This document shows positions 18,314 to 27,371 of a stretch of DNA of 53,384 nucleotides, one piece after another (the stretch's first letter is position 1; each line of letters opens with the position of its first letter). The translations under genes were made by a program, and so were the position numbers. The stretch is from assembly GCA_020438445.1 (NCBI GenBank), contig JAGQUO010000003.1, positions 1 through 53,384 on the forward strand. Direction: 5' to 3'. Source of the DNA: Solirubrobacterales bacterium. GTDB lineage: Bacteria > Actinomycetota > Thermoleophilia > Solirubrobacterales > 70-9. The notes under the pieces were generated by a model. It did no database searches. It saw nothing but the letters and a program-made list of their open reading frames with translations, and was not told the origin of the DNA.

Positions 18314-19225
18314 TCAGGCTGCTGCGGCCGCCTGCTGACGCCGCAACCCGAGCGGGTCCATCGAGGTGCCTCTGGGCACGACCAGCAGCGGCGAGCGCGC
18401 CGACGACATCAGGGCCCGCGAAGTACTGCCCAGCAGCGTCCGGCGCAACGGGCCGTGCCCGCGTGACCCGACGACCATGAGGTCGACCTCGGAGGAGACG
18501 TCGGCCAGGAGCGCCCCCGGCGAGCCCGTCATCAGCCGTCCTTCGGCCTTGACGCTGTGGGGGATGCGGCCGAGCGCCAGCTCCTGGGTGCGCTGCATCT
18601 CCTTGCGTTCTGCGTCCTGGAACTCGCCCGCGGTCATCACGGTCCACACGGTCGCGTATCCGTACTTGGGGTAGTCGGCCACGCTCAGCACCAGCAGCTC
18701 GCCGTGGGTCCGCTCGGCCAGGGCGATCGCGGTCTCGAGCGCGGCCCACGACTCGGGCGAGCCGTCGAAGCCGACGCCGATCTTCAGCAGCGAGTTCTCC
18801 GGGCGTTCCGCATAGCCGCGAGGGGCGACCATCACTGCGCACGGCGCACCGTGCAGCAGTGAGGCGCCAGTGCTCCCGAGAACCGTCTCACCGACCTTGC
18901 CGCGGTGGCAGGAGCCGACCACGAGCACGGTGGCGTGACGATCCTCGGCGAGCTTGCCGAGCGCATTGGAGATCGACTGCTCGGCAACCGGCACGGTCTC
19001 GACGCTGAGACCCGGGAGTAGGTCTCGCACCTTCTTGAACGTGTCGGCACTCTCGACCGCCAGGGCGTTCGAGAGATCCTCGTGGGTCATCAGGCCGCGA
19101 GGCCAGGGGTAAACCATCGCGACCGTCAGGCTTCCGCCGGAGACCTCGGCAAGGACGCGCCCGAGAGCCAATGCGTCGCGGCCTTCGGGACTATCCTGAT
19201 AGCCGATGAGAATCTGGCGGTCCAC
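18314..19225 (-). CDS. tandem universal stress protein
   Basis: The 303-residue protein has two UspA domains. Each ends with the ATP-binding pattern G-2x-G-9x-G-S/T: VGSCHRGKVGETVLGST in the first and VGSRGHGPLRRTLLGST in the second. Such two-domain proteins are hallmarks of the dormancy (DosR) regulon in mycobacteria. The start is GTG 19225, since TAGATT lies exactly 7 nt upstream and the protein then begins with the usual beta strand (QILIGYQDS); ATGs at 19252 and 19261 are also in frame. A box shared with cydA and the response regulator gene lies 46 bp upstream of the -10. Confidence 0.88.
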   Translation of the reverse strand: MDRQILIGYQDSPEGRDALALGRVLAEVSGGSLTVAMVYPWPRGLMTHEDLSNALAVESADTFKKVRDLLPGLSVETVPVAEQSISNALGKLAEDRHATVLVVGSCHRGKVGETVLGSTGASLLHGAPCAVMVAPRGYAERPENSLLKIGVGFDGSPESWAALETAIALAERTHGELLVLSVADYPKYGYATVWTVMTAGEFQDAERKEMQRTQELALGRIPHSVKAEGRLMTGSPGALLADVSSEVDLMVVGSRGHGPLRRTLLGSTSRALMSSARSPLLVVPRGTSMDPLGLRRQQAAAAA

Positions 19226-19232
19226 GTGCCGG

Positions 19233-19238
19233 AATCTA
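19233..19238 (-). promoter_or_regulatory. -10 element, leaderless promoter
   Basis: TAGATT on the minus strand ends 7 nt before the GTG at 19225. Confidence 0.55.
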
Positions 19239-19284
19239 CGGTCGGTGTCCATGGCGAACATCCGAACAGACTTGCGAACCGACT

Positions 19285-19299
19285 CGGTAGTCAACCCCC
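19285..19299. promoter_or_regulatory. CTCGGTAG box, stress protein/kinase intergenic copy
   Basis: CGGTAGTCAACCCCC keeps the CTCGGTAG half-site of the boxes at 23548 and 24301 but has a poor second half. Its edge is 46 bp from the stress protein -10 element. It lies 31 bp before the divergent kinase start, so it could act on both genes. Confidence 0.5.
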
Positions 19300-19330
19300 A
19301 TAAGCCCCCGTCCCGGAGGGGGTGCAGGCG

Positions 19331-21016
19331 ATGAGCACCGAAGCCGCGGGCCTCGAGCGCGAGCAGCTCGAGCGGCTCCTGGAGGTGGGCCGCAGCCTGG
19401 TCGCCGATCTCGACCTCGACACCGTGCTGATGAACGTGCTCGACGCCGCGCGGCAGCTGACCGGGGCACGCTACGCAGCGCTCGGGGTGCTCGACGCCGA
19501 CAAGACCGAGCTCGAGCGCTTCCTCTACGTCGGGATCGACGAGGAGACGCGGAAGCGGATCGGCCCGCTGCCGCGCGGCCACGGGATCCTCGGCGAGCTC
19601 ATCACCGACCCGCGGCCGCTCCGGCTGGACAGCCTCGGCGATCACCCGCGCTCGTACGGCTTCCCCTCCGAACATCCGAAGATGACGACCTTCGTCGGGA
19701 CGCCGATCACCGTCCGCGGCGAGGTCTTCGGGAACATCTACCTGACCGAGAAGGAAGGGGGCAGCCCGTTCGAGGAAGGGGACGAGCATCTGTTGACGGT
19801 CCTGGCGGAGTGGGCCGCGGTCGCCGTCAACAACGCCCGCACCCACGAGAAGCTGCGCCGGGGCCGCGCCGATCTCGAGCGCCTGGTCCAGGGCCTGCAG
19901 GCGACTGCCTCGCTGAGCCGGGAGCTCGGCGGTGAGTCCGACCTCGGCCGGGTCCTCGAGCTGGTCACCAAGCGGGCCCGTGCGCTCGTCGAGGCGCGCT
20001 CGAGCTACGTGTTGCTCAACGAGGGCGCCGAGCAGGTGGTCCGGGGCGCGGCGGGCGAGTGCGGCGCCCGCACGGTCGGCGGGTCGTTCGGCCCCGGGTC
20101 TGCTCCCGCGGACTTCATCGGGATGGAGGCGAGCCAGCGGATCGGCCCGGCCGGGGCGGAGTCGCTGCGAGAGATCGGGATCGAGGCGAGCGCCGGACTA
20201 GCGGTGCCGCTGCGCTCGCGGGGCCAGGGTCTCGGCGTGCTGGTCGTCGTCGACCATCTCGGTGAGGACCCATCGTTCTCGGCCGACCAGCAGCTGACGC
20301 TCGAGTCGTTCGCCACCAGCGCGGCGAACGCGATCGCCGCCGTCCACGCGATCGAGGACGAGAAGGCGAAGCTCGCGATCGCCTCGTCGGAGCGGGAGCG
20401 GGGCAGGTGGGCGCGTGAGCTCCACGACGAGACGCTGCAGGAGCTGGGAGCGCTGCGGATCATGCAGGAGAACGCCGCCCGCGCGGGCTCCCTCGAGCAG
20501 GCGCGCGACTACCTGGCCCAGGCGAACGAGCAGGTCGAGCGAACCGTCGCCGGGCTCCAGGGCCTGATCGCCGAGCTGCGACCGGCGGCGCTCGATCAGC
20601 TCGGCGTGCCGGCGGCCATCGACGCCCTGATCGAGCGGCTCGCTTCGCGGTCGGAGCTGACGTTCGAGACCGACATCGATCTCGCCTTCGAGCGCGGCGA
20701 CGCAGCCACCCGCCACGAGCCCGAGCTCGAGTCCACGATCTACCGGCTCGTCCAGGAGAGCCTGACGAACGCGATCAAGCATGCCGACGCCACCCGCGCG
20801 AGGGTGGCGATCGAGGAGCGCGACGGCTTGATCACCGTCCGGGTCGAGGACGACGGCAACGGCTTCGACCTCGGGTCCGTGTCCCGCGGCTTCGGCCTGA
20901 CCGGGATGCGCGAGCGGGTCGAGCTGGCCGGCGGGGAGCTGACGGTCGAAGGCCGGGAGGGAGGGGGGACCCTGATCAGGGTCAGCCTCCCCACAAACCG
21001 CGCCGACGGCGGCTAG
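19331..21016 (+). CDS. DosS/DevS-like GAF-domain sensor histidine kinase
   Basis: The 561-residue kinase has no membrane segment. Two GAF domains cover about residues 20-170 and 195-340. A HisKA_3 dimerisation helix follows with the phospho-acceptor in RELHDETLQELGAL (His365). A HATPase_c domain ends the protein (NAIKHADA, VEDDGNGFD, GFGLTGMRERVELAGG). In the first GAF domain, EHPKMTTFVGTP (His115) and GNIYLTEK (Tyr137) align with the heme-ligand His149 and distal Tyr171 of mycobacterial DosS, with the same 22-residue spacing. It may therefore sense O2, NO or CO through heme. ATG 19331 is preferred because GGAGG lies 12 nt upstream. Its partner is probably the NarL-type regulator at 23586. 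The stop abuts the cydB stop on the other strand. Confidence 0.9.
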   Translation: MSTEAAGLEREQLERLLEVGRSLVADLDLDTVLMNVLDAARQLTGARYAALGVLDADKTELERFLYVGIDEETRKRIGPLPRGHGILGELITDPRPLRLDSLGDHPRSYGFPSEHPKMTTFVGTPITVRGEVFGNIYLTEKEGGSPFEEGDEHLLTVLAEWAAVAVNNARTHEKLRRGRADLERLVQGLQATASLSRELGGESDLGRVLELVTKRARALVEARSSYVLLNEGAEQVVRGAAGECGARTVGGSFGPGSAPADFIGMEASQRIGPAGAESLREIGIEASAGLAVPLRSRGQGLGVLVVVDHLGEDPSFSADQQLTLESFATSAANAIAAVHAIEDEKAKLAIASSERERGRWARELHDETLQELGALRIMQENAARAGSLEQARDYLAQANEQVERTVAGLQGLIAELRPAALDQLGVPAAIDALIERLASRSELTFETDIDLAFERGDAATRHEPELESTIYRLVQESLTNAIKHADATRARVAIEERDGLITVRVEDDGNGFDLGSVSRGFGLTGMRERVELAGGELTVEGREGGGTLIRVSLPTNRADGG

Positions 21017-22093
21017 CTAGGCCTTCTCGCCGGCGCCGAGCTTCTGCTCGATCACGTCCATCGGCGTCGGCTGCTCGTCGAAGTCGTCGGCGCCGATCCG
21101 GTGCCTGAAGACCCAGTAGGTCCACGCCTGGTAGAGCAGGACGACCGGGACGAGAAGCGCCGCCACGACGGTCATCACGGTCAGCGTGTAGTCCGAGGAC
21201 GATGCGGCATTCAGGGTCAGGTCGAAGGCCGAGCTCGTGCTCGAGACCATCGCGTTCGGGAAGAGATCCGCGAAGAGGCTCGTGAAGAGCAGGACGATCC
21301 CGCCCGTCGTCGCACCGAACGCCCAGCCCGCGACTCCGCGGCGGGTGAGCAGCACCGCTGCCCACAGCGCCGCCGTCGCAGCGACCGCGAGGATCGCCGA
21401 GACGACCTCGATCCCGCCGGCGTCGGACTGGTTGACGAGCGTCCAGGCGAGGAACGCGGTCCCGATCGCTGCCGCGATCGGCATCGAACGCTTGGCGAGC
21501 GCGCGCGACCGCTCCTCGACCTCGTCCTTGGTCCGCAGCGCCAGGAAGTTGGCGCCGTGGGCGAAGAAAATCGTCAGGGTCGCGAGACCGCCGAGGATCG
21601 CGTAGGGGTTGAGCAGCGTGAACAGCGTGCCGGTGAACTCGCCGTCCGCACCGATCGGCACGCCGTTGACGATGTTCGCCCAGCCGACCCCCCAGAGGAG
21701 GGCGGCGAGGCCGCTGGAGATGATCATCGCCCACTCCCAGCGGCCGCGCCAGCGACGGTCCGGCCGCTTGCCCCAGAACTCGAAGGCGACGCCGCGGACG
21801 ATCAGGGCGGCGAGGATCAGGAACAGCGCCAGGTAGAAACCCGAGAACAGCGTCGCGTACCACTGGGGGAAGGCGGCGAACGTGGCGCCGCCGGCGACGA
21901 GGAGCCAGACCTCGTTGCCGTCCCAGACGGGCCCGATCGTGTGGATCACGGCGCGGCGCTCGCGGTCGTCGCGGCCGACCAGCCGCAGCAGCATGCCGAC
22001 GCCGAAGTCGAAGCCCTCGAGCACGAAGTACCCGAGCCAGAGGACCGAGATCAATACGAACCAGAGGCCCTGGAGGAAGGTCACGTCGTCCAT
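21017..22093 (-). CDS. cydB: cytochrome bd oxidase subunit II
   Basis: The 358-residue integral membrane protein has about nine hydrophobic segments and the N-terminal family signature WFVLISVLWLGYFVLEGFDFG, of which EGFDFG is diagnostic. IGPVWDGNEVWL also matches the family closely. It pairs with CydA to form the quinol oxidase that reduces O2 with high affinity and without proton pumping. Its ATG lies 1 nt after the cydA stop, so the two are translated together. The cydDC genes for assembly are not in this window. Confidence 0.95.
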   Translation of the reverse strand: MDDVTFLQGLWFVLISVLWLGYFVLEGFDFGVGMLLRLVGRDDRERRAVIHTIGPVWDGNEVWLLVAGGATFAAFPQWYATLFSGFYLALFLILAALIVRGVAFEFWGKRPDRRWRGRWEWAMIISSGLAALLWGVGWANIVNGVPIGADGEFTGTLFTLLNPYAILGGLATLTIFFAHGANFLALRTKDEVEERSRALAKRSMPIAAAIGTAFLAWTLVNQSDAGGIEVVSAILAVAATAALWAAVLLTRRGVAGWAFGATTGGIVLLFTSLFADLFPNAMVSSTSSAFDLTLNAASSSDYTLTVMTVVAALLVPVVLLYQAWTYWVFRHRIGADDFDEQPTPMDVIEQKLGAGEKA

Positions 22094-22094
22094 G

Positions 22095-23486
22095 TCAGTA
22101 GGCGAGGCCGAAGTCCGGCTCGCCGGCCTCCTTTTCGGTGTCGTCGTCGGAGTCGGGTCCCTTGCGCGCCTTCTCGAGGAAGATGCGACCGGCGATCACG
22201 GCGAGCACGCCGTAGAGCAGCGTGAACCCGACCAGGGTGATCAGGACCTCGGCGGTGCTGACTGCGGGCGAGCCGGCCTCGTTCGTCTTCAGCATCCCGA
22301 AGACGACCCAGGGCTGGCGCCCCATCTCGGTGAAGATCCAGCCCGCCGTGTTCGCCACGAAGGGGAGGACCCCTGCGAGGACCATCAGCTTCAGGTAGCG
22401 GGTCGACGCGACGAGCTTGCCCTTGCGGACGAGCCACCAGCCGGCGAAGCCGAGGACGGCGGCGAGGAAGCCGATTCCCAGCATCGCCCGCCACGACCAG
22501 TAGGCGATGGCCACCACCGGCGCGTACTCACCGGGACCGTACTTCTGCTGGTACTCGGCGTTGAGGTTGTTGATCCCCTGGATCTCGCCCTGCGGATAGC
22601 CGGTGCTGATGAACGAGAGGAGGTTGGGGATCTCGACGTTGCGGTTCAGGCCTTCGGGGTTCGACTTGAAGTCACCGGTGGCGAAGAGCGAGAGCCCGGC
22701 GCCCTCCTTCGTCTCGAAGACTGCGTCGGCCGCGGCCATCTTCATCGGCTGCTGCTCGCTCATCAGGACGCCGTTGAAGTGACCGACGATCACCGTCACC
22801 AGCGCTGAGACGGCGAGCACCGGGAGCGCGACCCTGATCGAGCGGGTGAAGACCTCGGTCTGGGTCCCGCGCAACAGGTGCCAGGCGGAGATCGCGATGA
22901 CGATCATCGAGGCCGTGATCAGGGCCGCGAGAATCGTGTGCGCGAAGGCGTACAGCGCCGTGTTGTTGCCGAGCACGGCCCAGATCGACGTCAGCTCGGG
23001 CCGGCCGTCGACCATCTCGTAGCCGACCGGGTGCTGCATCCAGGAGTTGGCGGCGAGGATGAAGAAGGCCGACAGCGCGGTCGATCCGGCGACCAGCCAG
23101 ATCGTCGCCAGATGGAGCTTCGGCGACAGGCGGCCCCAGCCGAACAGCCAGAGCCCGAGGAAGGTCGATTCGACGAAGAACGCGGCCAGGCCCTCCATCG
23201 CGAGCGGGGCGCCGAAGATGTCGCCGACGAACCGCGAGTAGTTCGACCAGTTCATGCCGAACTGGAACTCCTGGACGATGCCGGTCACGACGCCGAGCGC
23301 GAAGGAGATCAGCATCAGCTTGCCCCAGAAGCGGGTGGCGCGGCGCCAGTGATCGTCGCCGGTGCGGTACCAGCGGGTCTGGAAGTAGGCGGTGAGGGCG
23401 GCGAGCCCGATCGTCACCGGCACGAAGAGGAAGTGGTAGACGGTCGTGATGCCGAATTGCCAGCGGGCGAGTTCGAGGGAGCTCAT
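22095..23486 (-). CDS. cydA: cytochrome bd oxidase subunit I
   Basis: The 463-residue subunit carries the three hemes. The N-terminal RWQFGITTVYHFLFVP contains the heme b595 His ligand region. APLAMEGLAAFFVEST holds conserved Glu residues. GHFNGVLMSEQQPMKMAAAD begins the quinol loop, and PWVVFGMLKT is the Met-containing segment near the end. The quinol loop is of the short type. It is first in the cydAB transcript. A TACCGT hexamer lies 8 nt upstream of the ATG. A palindrome shared with the response regulator gene lies 47 bp further upstream, so bd oxidase is probably controlled by that regulator. Confidence 0.95.
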   Translation of the reverse strand: MSSLELARWQFGITTVYHFLFVPVTIGLAALTAYFQTRWYRTGDDHWRRATRFWGKLMLISFALGVVTGIVQEFQFGMNWSNYSRFVGDIFGAPLAMEGLAAFFVESTFLGLWLFGWGRLSPKLHLATIWLVAGSTALSAFFILAANSWMQHPVGYEMVDGRPELTSIWAVLGNNTALYAFAHTILAALITASMIVIAISAWHLLRGTQTEVFTRSIRVALPVLAVSALVTVIVGHFNGVLMSEQQPMKMAAADAVFETKEGAGLSLFATGDFKSNPEGLNRNVEIPNLLSFISTGYPQGEIQGINNLNAEYQQKYGPGEYAPVVAIAYWSWRAMLGIGFLAAVLGFAGWWLVRKGKLVASTRYLKLMVLAGVLPFVANTAGWIFTEMGRQPWVVFGMLKTNEAGSPAVSTAEVLITLVGFTLLYGVLAVIAGRIFLEKARKGPDSDDDTEKEAGEPDFGLAY

Positions 23487-23494
23487 GCCCGTGA

Positions 23495-23500
23495 ACGGTA
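23495..23500 (-). promoter_or_regulatory. -10 element of cydAB
   Basis: TACCGT on the minus strand ends 8 nt before the cydA ATG at 23486. Confidence 0.45.
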
Positions 23501-23547
23501 TGACCGCGGGGGGTGCCGTCGGTCGGGACCGGCTTCTGGATTCGGCT

Positions 23548-23562
23548 CGGTAGGGACTACCG
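23548..23562. promoter_or_regulatory. perfect palindromic box upstream of cydA
   Basis: CGGTAGGGACTACCG is a perfect 6-bp inverted repeat with a 3-nt centre. It lies 62-76 bp upstream of the cydA start and 47 bp from the -10 element. The same box, slightly degenerate, is found at the same distance from the response regulator start and, as a half-site, from the stress protein start. It is the best candidate for a NarL/DosR-type binding site. Confidence 0.65.
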
Positions 23563-23585
23563 ACACCGCCTGCAGACGACCGCTG

Positions 23586-24239
23586 TCAGCGGTCCACGAG
23601 CTCGTTGTCGATCGCGTAAGCGATCAGCTCGGCGCGGGTCGAGAGCCCGGTCTTGCGCTGGATGTTGGCGCGATGCGTCTCGACGGTGCGGACGCTCAGC
23701 ACGAGCCGCTCGGCGATCTCGGGATTGACGTATCCGAGCGCCAGCAGGCCGAGGACCTCGACCTCGCGCGGGGTCAGCTCGTCCGGAGGTCCCTCCGGCT
23801 TGTCCGGCTCGGCCGCCAGCCGGGCTCCGAGCTCGGGGTTGATGTAGGTGCCGCCGCCGATTACGGCGCGGATCGCCGTCACCAGCTCGCTCGCCGCCGA
23901 GTGCTTGATGACGTAACCCTTCGCACCACCCTGGAGCGCCTTGCGGGCGAAGGCGGGCTCGTTCTGCATCGTCAGGACGACGACGGCGGTCCCGGGGGAT
24001 GCCTCGAAGACCTTCGGCAGGGCCTCGAGGCTCGGTAGCCCGGGCATGCTGAGGTCGAGGACGAGCACCGACGGCTTGTGGCCGAGGACGTAGCGGGCCG
24101 CCGTCTCGGCGTCGCCGGCCTCGGCGACGACCTCGAAGCCCGGTTCGTCCTCGAGGACCTTGCGGATCCCCGCCCGCACCAGCTCGTGGTCGTCCGCGAG
24201 GACGATCGTCACCCTGTCTGCCTCGGTCTCGGCTCCCAC
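23586..24239 (-). CDS. NarL/LuxR-family response regulator
   Basis: The 217-residue protein has a receiver domain (residues about 10-125) with acidic DDHE near the start, the phospho-acceptor Asp in VLVLDLSMPG, and a late Lys in GYVIKHS. A LuxR-type helix-turn-helix follows at about 150-215 (LTPREVEVLGLLALGYVNPE, then VRTVETHRANIQRKTGL). It is the likely partner of the GAF kinase at 19331, the two genes flanking cydBA. The GTG start lies 9 nt after TAGTCT. A box at 24301-24315, 46 bp above that -10, suggests it controls its own gene. Confidence 0.9.
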   Translation of the reverse strand: MGAETEADRVTIVLADDHELVRAGIRKVLEDEPGFEVVAEAGDAETAARYVLGHKPSVLVLDLSMPGLPSLEALPKVFEASPGTAVVVLTMQNEPAFARKALQGGAKGYVIKHSAASELVTAIRAVIGGGTYINPELGARLAAEPDKPEGPPDELTPREVEVLGLLALGYVNPEIAERLVLSVRTVETHRANIQRKTGLSTRAELIAYAIDNELVDR

Positions 24240-24248
24240 TCGGCGAGA

Positions 24249-24254
24249 AGACTA
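24249..24254 (-). promoter_or_regulatory. -10 element of the response regulator gene
   Basis: TAGTCT on the minus strand ends 9 nt before the GTG at 24239, implying a leader of at most a few bases. Confidence 0.45.
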
Positions 24255-24300
24255 CTTCCGGCGCCTGCGGCCCTGATCCGCGCCCGGCCGCAGCGGCTCT

Positions 24301-24315
24301 CGGTAGTGGCTACGG
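24301..24315. promoter_or_regulatory. palindromic box upstream of the response regulator gene
   Basis: CGGTAGTGGCTACGG is an inverted repeat with one mismatch. It lies 62-76 bp above the start codon, exactly the same offset as the box upstream of cydA. It points to autoregulation. Confidence 0.6.
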
Positions 24316-24353
24316 AGGCCCGGGCACACCGGCCCGGCCGCTCCGGGTCCGGG

Positions 24354-26230: not shown

Positions 26231-26313
26231 GAGCCCGCCGGTCGGCGTCCTCGTCGGCTCACGGCCCGCCGGCCGCTTCGCCTCCTGCGTCCTTGACCGG
26301 CGGGCTCTCAGCC
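26225..26313 (+). repeat. long inverted repeat over the rpmE stop codon
   Basis: GGCTGAGAGCCCGCCGGTC (26225-26243) and its exact complement GACCGGCGGGCTCTCAGCC (26295-26313) form a 19-bp stem around 51 nt. The first arm includes the rpmE TGA. It could act as a terminator or attenuator before the DUF1385 gene. Confidence 0.6.
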
Positions 26314-26386
26314 GCGACCGGCCTCCCGTCCTCGTCGGCTCACGGCCCGCCGGCCGCTTCGCCTCCTGCGTCCTTGACCGGCGGGC
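26247..26386 (+). repeat. 59-bp direct repeat, two copies
   Basis: The same 59 bases occur at 26247-26305 and 26328-26386 without mismatch; the offset is 81 bp. Each copy begins GTCCTCGTCGGCTCACGG and ends TTGACCGGCGGGC. The end of copy 1 lies in the second arm of the inverted repeat at 26225-26313. The repeat fills the gap between rpmE and the DUF1385 gene and ends 16 nt before the next start. Confidence 0.8.
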
Positions 26387-26402: not shown

Positions 26403-27371
26403 ATGAGCGAGCTGCACGAGGCGGCCCAGCCGATGCCCGACGGCAAGCCCGTCGCGTCGCGGGACGCGCCCGTCGGCGGTCAGGCGATCCTCGAGGGGGT
26501 GATGATGCGCGGCGTCTCGACCTGGGCCGCCGCCGTCCGCACGCCCGAGGGCGCGATCACGATCACCTCCGAGCCAGTCGTCTCTTGGGCCAAGCGGCAC
26601 CGCATGCTCCGCCTGCCGGTCGTCCGCGGCGTCGTCGCCCTCGCCGAGTCGCTGAAGATCGGGTTCCGCGCGCTCGCGTTCTCCGCCAACGCGCAGATCG
26701 CCGACGAGGAGGAGCAGGAGCCGATCGGCGGCCTCACCTGGGGGCTGACGGTGGCATTCTCGCTCGCCCTGGCGGTCGGCCTCTTCTTCGTCGTGCCGGT
26801 CGGGCTGACCAGCCTGATCAAGGACCAGCTCGGCTCCGCCGTCGTCTTCTGGCTCGTCGAAGGCGTGCTGAGGACCGCGATCTTCATCGGCTACATCGCC
26901 GCGATCAGCCGCCTGCCCGACCTGCGGCGGGTCTTCGAGTACCACGGCGCCGAGCACAAGACGATCTCCTGCTTCGAGGCCGGCGATGAGCTGTCCCCCG
27001 AGCGCGCCGCGCGGTACTCGCGCCTGCATCCCCGCTGCGGCACGAGCTTCCTGTTGATCGTCATGGTCCTCGCGATCTTCGTCTTCGCCCCGATCGGGCT
27101 CCCCGCCTGGTACTGGCTCGTGATCACGCGCATCGTCGGCATTCCGCTGATCGCCGGGCTCTCCTACGAGGTCATCAAGTGGGCGGGAAGGAACCGGGGC
27201 CGCGCCTGGGTCCGCGGCCTGATGTGGCCCGGCCTGATGCTGCAGAACCTGACGACCCGCGAGCCCGATCACGAGCAGCTCGAGGTCGCGATCGCATCGC
27301 TCGGGGAGGTCCTCGCCGTCGAGGGAGCGGTGCTCGACGGCCGCGAGAGCCCGATCGAGATAGTCGCGTAG
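26403..27371 (+). CDS. DUF1385 membrane protein
   Basis: The 322-residue protein has the DUF1385 signatures in order: VGGQAILEGVMMRG near residue 24, RRVFEYHGAEHKTISC near residue 180, RLHPRCGTSFLL and, at the end, PGLMLQNLTTREPDHEQLEV. Several hydrophobic segments lie in the middle (TVAFSLALAVGLFFVVPVGL and FLLIVMVLAIFVFAPI), so it is an inner-membrane protein. Function is not established; the conserved His and Cys residues suggest metal binding. It is commonly found between rpmE and prfA in Gram-positive genomes, as here. Confidence 0.9.
   Translation: MSELHEAAQPMPDGKPVASRDAPVGGQAILEGVMMRGVSTWAAAVRTPEGAITITSEPVVSWAKRHRMLRLPVVRGVVALAESLKIGFRALAFSANAQIADEEEQEPIGGLTWGLTVAFSLALAVGLFFVVPVGLTSLIKDQLGSAVVFWLVEGVLRTAIFIGYIAAISRLPDLRRVFEYHGAEHKTISCFEAGDELSPERAARYSRLHPRCGTSFLLIVMVLAIFVFAPIGLPAWYWLVITRIVGIPLIAGLSYEVIKWAGRNRGRAWVRGLMWPGLMLQNLTTREPDHEQLEVAIASLGEVLAVEGAVLDGRESPIEIVA

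Follow-up and report, generated by a model that had tools for sequence, protein, structure and literature searches.

Genes and promoters of the locus

The window analysed here is the whole 53,384-nucleotide stretch of contig JAGQUO010000003.1 from a Solirubrobacterales bacterium. It contains a locus in which genes for a universal stress protein, a sensor kinase, a bd oxidase and a response regulator lie together, and a similar box sequence was found at three promoters of this locus. The stress protein, with two tandem Usp domains (Pfam PF00582, E 2e-39), is encoded on the minus strand at 18314..19225. Next to it, on the plus strand at 19331..21016, lies the gene of a GAF-GAF-HisKA_3-HATPase sensor histidine kinase (Pfam/NCBIfam). 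The bd oxidase genes are both on the minus strand, cydB for subunit II at 21017..22093 (PF02322, E 3.5e-103; TIGR00203) and cydA for subunit I at 22095..23486 (PF01654, E 3.6e-164). The NarL/LuxR-type response regulator, consisting of a receiver and a GerE helix-turn-helix domain (PF00072, PF00196), is encoded at 23586..24239 on the minus strand, with a leaderless GTG start at 24239.

In a genome of the same genus (G001), the order P450, Usp, kinase, regulator and alcohol dehydrogenase matches that of the window without cydBA, so the oxidase operon of the window sits between the convergent kinase and regulator genes and has its own boxed promoter. The presence of cydBA (21017-23486) in the window and its absence from G001 reflect a recent gain or loss.

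All three boxes serve minus-strand promoters and follow the general 17-mer form TCNGTAG-N3-CTACNGA. Box 2, at the cydA promoter (23547..23563), is a perfect dyad, TCGGTAG-GGA-CTACCGA, while box 3 (24300..24316), upstream of the regulator gene and suggestive of autoregulation, reads TCGGTAG-TGG-CTACGGA. At the stress-protein promoter, box 1 (19284..19300; TCGGTAG-TCA-ACCCCCA on the plus strand) has one strong half-site, the CTACCGA half that faces this promoter, and its other half is poor. The half-site shared by three promoters in the initial annotation was thus recovered, with the stress-protein site reduced to one good half, and the 15-mers at 19285, 23548 and 24301 were exactly as quoted there.

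Each box is followed at nearly the same distance by a predicted -10 element of the form TANNNT. These are TAGATT (19233..19238), 45 bp from box 1 and 7 nt before the GTG of the stress protein; TACCGT (23495..23500), 46 bp from box 2 and 8 nt before the ATG of cydA; and TAGTCT (24249..24254), 45 bp from box 3 and 9 nt before the GTG of the regulator. The distances of 46, 47 and 46 bp given previously are correct for the shorter box and correspond to 45, 46 and 45 bp from the edge of the 17-mer. Since TANNNT ends only 7-9 nt before each start codon, leaderless mRNAs are predicted, and the same position favors GTG 19225 over the alternative ATG 19252 as the stress-protein start. The leaderless GTG composite of this gene was also found in both other members of the genus, G001 and G002.

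The regular distance from box to -10, not the number of boxes, is what stands out at the locus. When we searched for the composite CTACNGA-N43-47-TANNNT-N5-9-RTG, three matches were obtained in the window compared to a mean of 0.017 per dinucleotide shuffle, and never more than one in 300 shuffles. A pattern scan of the whole own genome (2.69 Mb) gave four matches, three of them in this window, with none for the reversed-pattern control, which bears out the earlier remark that the spacing is too regular for chance. The half-site CTCGGTAG occurred at 19283, 23546 and 24299 and once within the regulator coding sequence (24031), i.e. four times against 1.1 expected; 5 of 100 shuffles reached four, so that the half-site alone was not significant. 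Neither was the palindrome with two mismatches (matched in 20 of 100 shuffles), and with one mismatch it was not enriched in the own genome (6 vs 14 for the reversed control). These counts were not used as evidence.

The box and its spacing in related genomes

Motif discovery was carried out on 75 upstream regions taken from orthologues of the regulator, the kinase, the stress protein and cydA; the window and all coding sequence were excluded. The motif obtained, TCnGTAGTTnCCCGCGA (printed as the reverse complement), had a log-likelihood ratio of 193.6 compared to 69-101 in 36 dinucleotide-shuffled sets. A held-out set of 18 cydA upstream regions, fetched after the motif had been defined, was then scored against shuffles of each sequence. 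The motif was present at p<=0.03 in 11 of the 18, and a twelfth (G152, p 0.06) has TCCGTAGTTCGCCGC.

The spacing was conserved together with the box. In the first set of relatives, a -10 element at 20-23, 42-47 or 64-68 bp was present for 24 of 38 sites (1.9 on average and at most 8 in shuffles), although these distance windows were picked after viewing that set and the held-out set is the fair test. In the twelve held-out sites, all eight TANNNT elements detected lay at 22, 43, 43, 44, 44, 44, 44 or 65 bp (in 1000 shuffles, 0.49 sequences on average and 4 at most), orthologous promoters not being fully independent. The 22-bp steps between the spacing classes correspond to about two helical turns.

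The initial annotation had made its reading depend on conservation of the box in relatives, and the box was indeed found upstream of stress-protein orthologues in 3 of 3 genus members, of cydA genes throughout the class and of regulator genes, with the spacing either unchanged or helically equivalent. Box 1 is conserved in both other genus members, and sites equivalent to box 3 precede the regulator gene in G005, G006, G011 and G053. Stress-protein genes carrying the composite were found in G001, G002, G047 and G053. The half-site composite was enriched within this genus only (10 vs 0 for the control), and its asymmetric form gave 10 matches vs 2. The stress protein shares a box with two-component genes as in a dormancy-type regulon, the likeness being one of box and not of expression.

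The genes themselves also keep company. Kinase and regulator genes are adjacent in nearly all relatives examined. Besides the window, some ten genomes of the class have cydA no more than 10 kb away from the pair or its kinase: in three of them the cydAB genes are a few kb from the pair, and in seven, judged from coordinates, cydA is at most 10 kb from a kinase match.

Sensor, regulator and further candidate targets

By its sequence the kinase is of the DosS/DosT type, as the initial annotation had called it. Its GAF-A domain matched those of DosT and DosS at E 1e-43 (DosT) to 1e-40, whereas the next GAF structures were at about 1e-7, and the GAF-GAF-HisKA_3-HATPase_c architecture of that family is present. 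In DosS and DosT, His149/147 is the proximal haem ligand and Tyr171/169 the distal residue of GAF-A (PMC4082495). His115 of the window kinase aligns with DosS His149, and Tyr137 with the distal, ligand-discriminating DosS Tyr171; both residues are invariant in 18 aligned kinases (the window and 17 relatives) and in DosS. The position of DosS Glu87 is occupied by Gly, as in DosT. A GAF-A domain of this type with haem His and distal Tyr retained makes it likely that the kinase responds to low oxygen, nitric oxide (NO) or carbon monoxide (CO). Around twelve kinase matches, most of them from a single family, have one TGA within the matched frame.

Most relatives have an orthologue of the regulator (identity 53% or higher), which is usually encoded next to the kinase, and the named matches place these orthologues in Solirubrobacterales/Thermoleophilia. 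In a comparison made among solved structures, with no tree, DosR (E 3e-24) ranked below VraR and NarL (1e-28), and for the DNA-binding domain DosR scored 30 bits vs 41 bits for the best VraR-type match. The regulator therefore appears to be of NarL type, nearer to VraR/NarL than to DosR, and probably not a DosR orthologue.

As to which factor binds the box, the recognition helix RTVETHR tends to go with dyad boxes, and RTVESHR with the form GTARTT-N-CCCGCA. One relative, G006, has two paralogous kinase-regulator systems (on C188 and C107), each next to the box subtype fitting its recognition helix. This match of helix and box, together with the presence of the box before the regulator gene in several families, is suggestive of binding by the neighbouring regulator.

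Further candidate targets were sought in the own genome with a looser GTAG form of the composite. It gave 10 matches, on par with the reversed controls (11 and 10), and so serves only as a source of candidates. Four matches have TCN in front, those of cydA, the regulator, a CBS-domain protein (C226; box TCAGTAG-CCA-GTACCGA) and the gamma subunit of a 2-oxoacid:ferredoxin oxidoreductase (POR; C219; box TCCGTAG-TGA-CAACCCA). The other matches (L201-L204, L209 and L210), which lack the TCN flank, were dismissed as chance. Near position 6150 of C219 a single box lies between the divergent genes for pyruvate phosphate dikinase (PPDK) and POR gamma, about 22 bp from the -10 of the leaderless PPDK gene and about 45 bp from the other -10. 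Orthologues of these candidates carry the box as well. In G001 the CBS orthologue has TCGGTAG-CGA-GTACCGA in front of a TANNNT and an ATG, and in G020 the corresponding box is CTGCGGACGACTACGGA. The -10 is some 45 bp away in either genome, and boxes are also present at POR genes of G005, G019 and G053. The new sites are functionally coherent, and the CBS protein, the POR subunit and PPDK may be regarded as further candidate targets, with the regulon probably larger than three genes. Composites with one half-site only precede genes for a MoxR-type AAA ATPase (C248:20059) and a trehalose-synthase-like glycosyltransferase (C252:7407); they are possible targets or chance matches.

Elsewhere in the window, an exact 60-bp direct repeat (26246-26386; two copies spaced 81 bp, at 26246 and 26327) lies upstream of an open reading frame starting at 26403. 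No Rfam elements were found in the window.

A predicted low-oxygen system and its alternatives

Taken together, the locus would encode a low-oxygen activator system of Thermoleophilia that resembles DosRS but has a box of its own and cydAB under its direct control, a reading to which we give a probability of roughly three in four. Computation gave the box and its conservation, the rule for its spacing, the set of candidate genes and the conservation of the haem ligand; we infer binding by this regulator, activation and the gas signal. The kinase with its haem-GAF domain and the neighbouring NarL-type regulator would form a two-component system, in which low oxygen (or NO or CO) would lead the kinase to phosphorylate the regulator. 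The regulator would then dimerise on TCNGTAG-N3-CTACNGA, placed upstream of the -10 by two, four or six helical turns, that is, with the box about 22, 44 or 66 bp from the -10 and its centre near -43, -66 or -87, and would recruit RNA polymerase to mostly leaderless promoters. In the own genome cydAB, the universal stress protein gene, the regulator's own gene and the CBS-domain protein gene would be switched on, as would, through a single shared box, the genes for a pyruvate:ferredoxin oxidoreductase gamma subunit (POR gamma) and PPDK.

Several results weigh against this. The kinase gene has no clear promoter behind box 1, and in G001, the closest relative, no box was found at the promoter of the regulator. 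Of the 18 held-out cydA upstream regions, six likewise have no box, and the half-site composite over 61 relatives as a whole was not enriched (53 vs 63 for the control). The covariation of helix and box has exceptions in G042 and G044, and is for this reason suggestive only.

The alternative that survives best, although we consider it unlikely, is that the box, though a genuine and conserved promoter element, is bound by another regulator, of the NarL family or unrelated, with the neighbouring two-component system only a target. Several related NarL-type regulators per genome would be available for such a role (6 matches in the own genome at E<=1e-25). However, in many genomes the box stands before the gene of the regulator, the kinase or a stress protein, even in genomes with cydA at another place (G053) or on a different contig, and its subtype tends to track the recognition helix of the regulator. 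It is less probable still that the system represses these genes, or both activates and represses them. NarL-family regulators can repress and the sequence does not give the direction, but the boxes lie upstream of the -10 at helically phased distances, with no overlap in the modal classes, which is the usual geometry of an activator.

An ordinary DosR/OsdR-type regulon with a standard box has very little left in its favor. The system resembles DosS/DosT-DosR (DevS/DevR) of Mycobacterium in its GAF-GAF-HisKA_3-HATPase kinase with haem His and distal Tyr in GAF-A, in its NarL-type regulator and in the universal stress proteins that it would target; CBS proteins, such as Hrp1, are targets in Mycobacterium too. 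In addition to this kinase type, the cydA box contains GGGACT, which matches a simplified DosR core with one mismatch; GGGACT was not seen in the cydA boxes of relatives. Unlike in Mycobacterium, the DNA box is another one, as initially noted, DosR is not the best match of the regulator, which lies nearer to VraR and NarL, and cydAB is predicted to be targeted directly. The DosR palindrome was rejected with 3 mismatches at both the stress-protein and the regulator promoters. Cyd regulation in M. smegmatis has been described in other terms: cydAB was reported to be under CRP control in hypoxia (PMC7719681), and CO tolerance needed bd oxidase, not DosR (PMC8125079). OsdK/OsdR of Streptomyces coelicolor is similar in that a DosS-like kinase adjoins a NarL-type regulator with USP-domain genes nearby (PMC5069765). 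The OsdR box is AGGGCCGATCGGCCCT, and cydA is not mentioned in that paper (PMC5069765). In contrast, the motif of the relatives here is TCNGTAGTTNCCCGCGA, and the OsdR palindrome had no match at the window promoters.

NreB/NreC of Staphylococcus is likewise an oxygen-linked two-component system with a NarL-type regulator, and some of the weaker homologues found for the regulator (about 38-40%) are staphylococcal proteins. Its sensor NreB is of the Fe-S type, unlike the haem-type kinase here. The NreC site, GTAGGG-N4-CCCTAC, for which a literature search returned nothing, was rejected because the window boxes differ from it at at least 4 positions. Upstream of cydA the Rex and CRP palindromes were rejected with best matches of 6 and 3 mismatches, respectively, and an FNR box tested against the sites was also rejected.

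That the three sequences are alike by chance can practically be set aside, for although the half-site and palindrome counts alone are near chance, the composite is rare in window and genome, the motif was rediscovered from relatives, and box and spacing are conserved in held-out cydA upstream regions not used to define them.

Of the compact DosRS-like system proposed in the initial annotation, the DosS-like kinase and the conserved box therefore stand, whereas by sequence the regulator is no orthologue of DosR and the regulon is probably not confined to three genes. It is rather likely that it would be a hypoxia regulon across the class Thermoleophilia, with a DosT-like haem kinase, a non-DosR NarL regulator, its own box and a strict 22-bp rule (22, 44 or 66 bp from the -10), which would couple gas sensing directly to bd oxidase as well as to 2-oxoacid:ferredoxin oxidoreductase and PPDK. 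A full-text literature search found no regulatory work of this kind in these little-studied soil actinobacteria. Actinobacterial dormancy has DosS/DosR as its model system; at the present locus a sensor of that type goes with another regulator and another DNA code, and appears to be wired directly to the high-affinity oxidase. A conserved gas sensor may thus acquire a new box and new targets by rewiring, and the reading predicts a defined regulon with a spacing rule.

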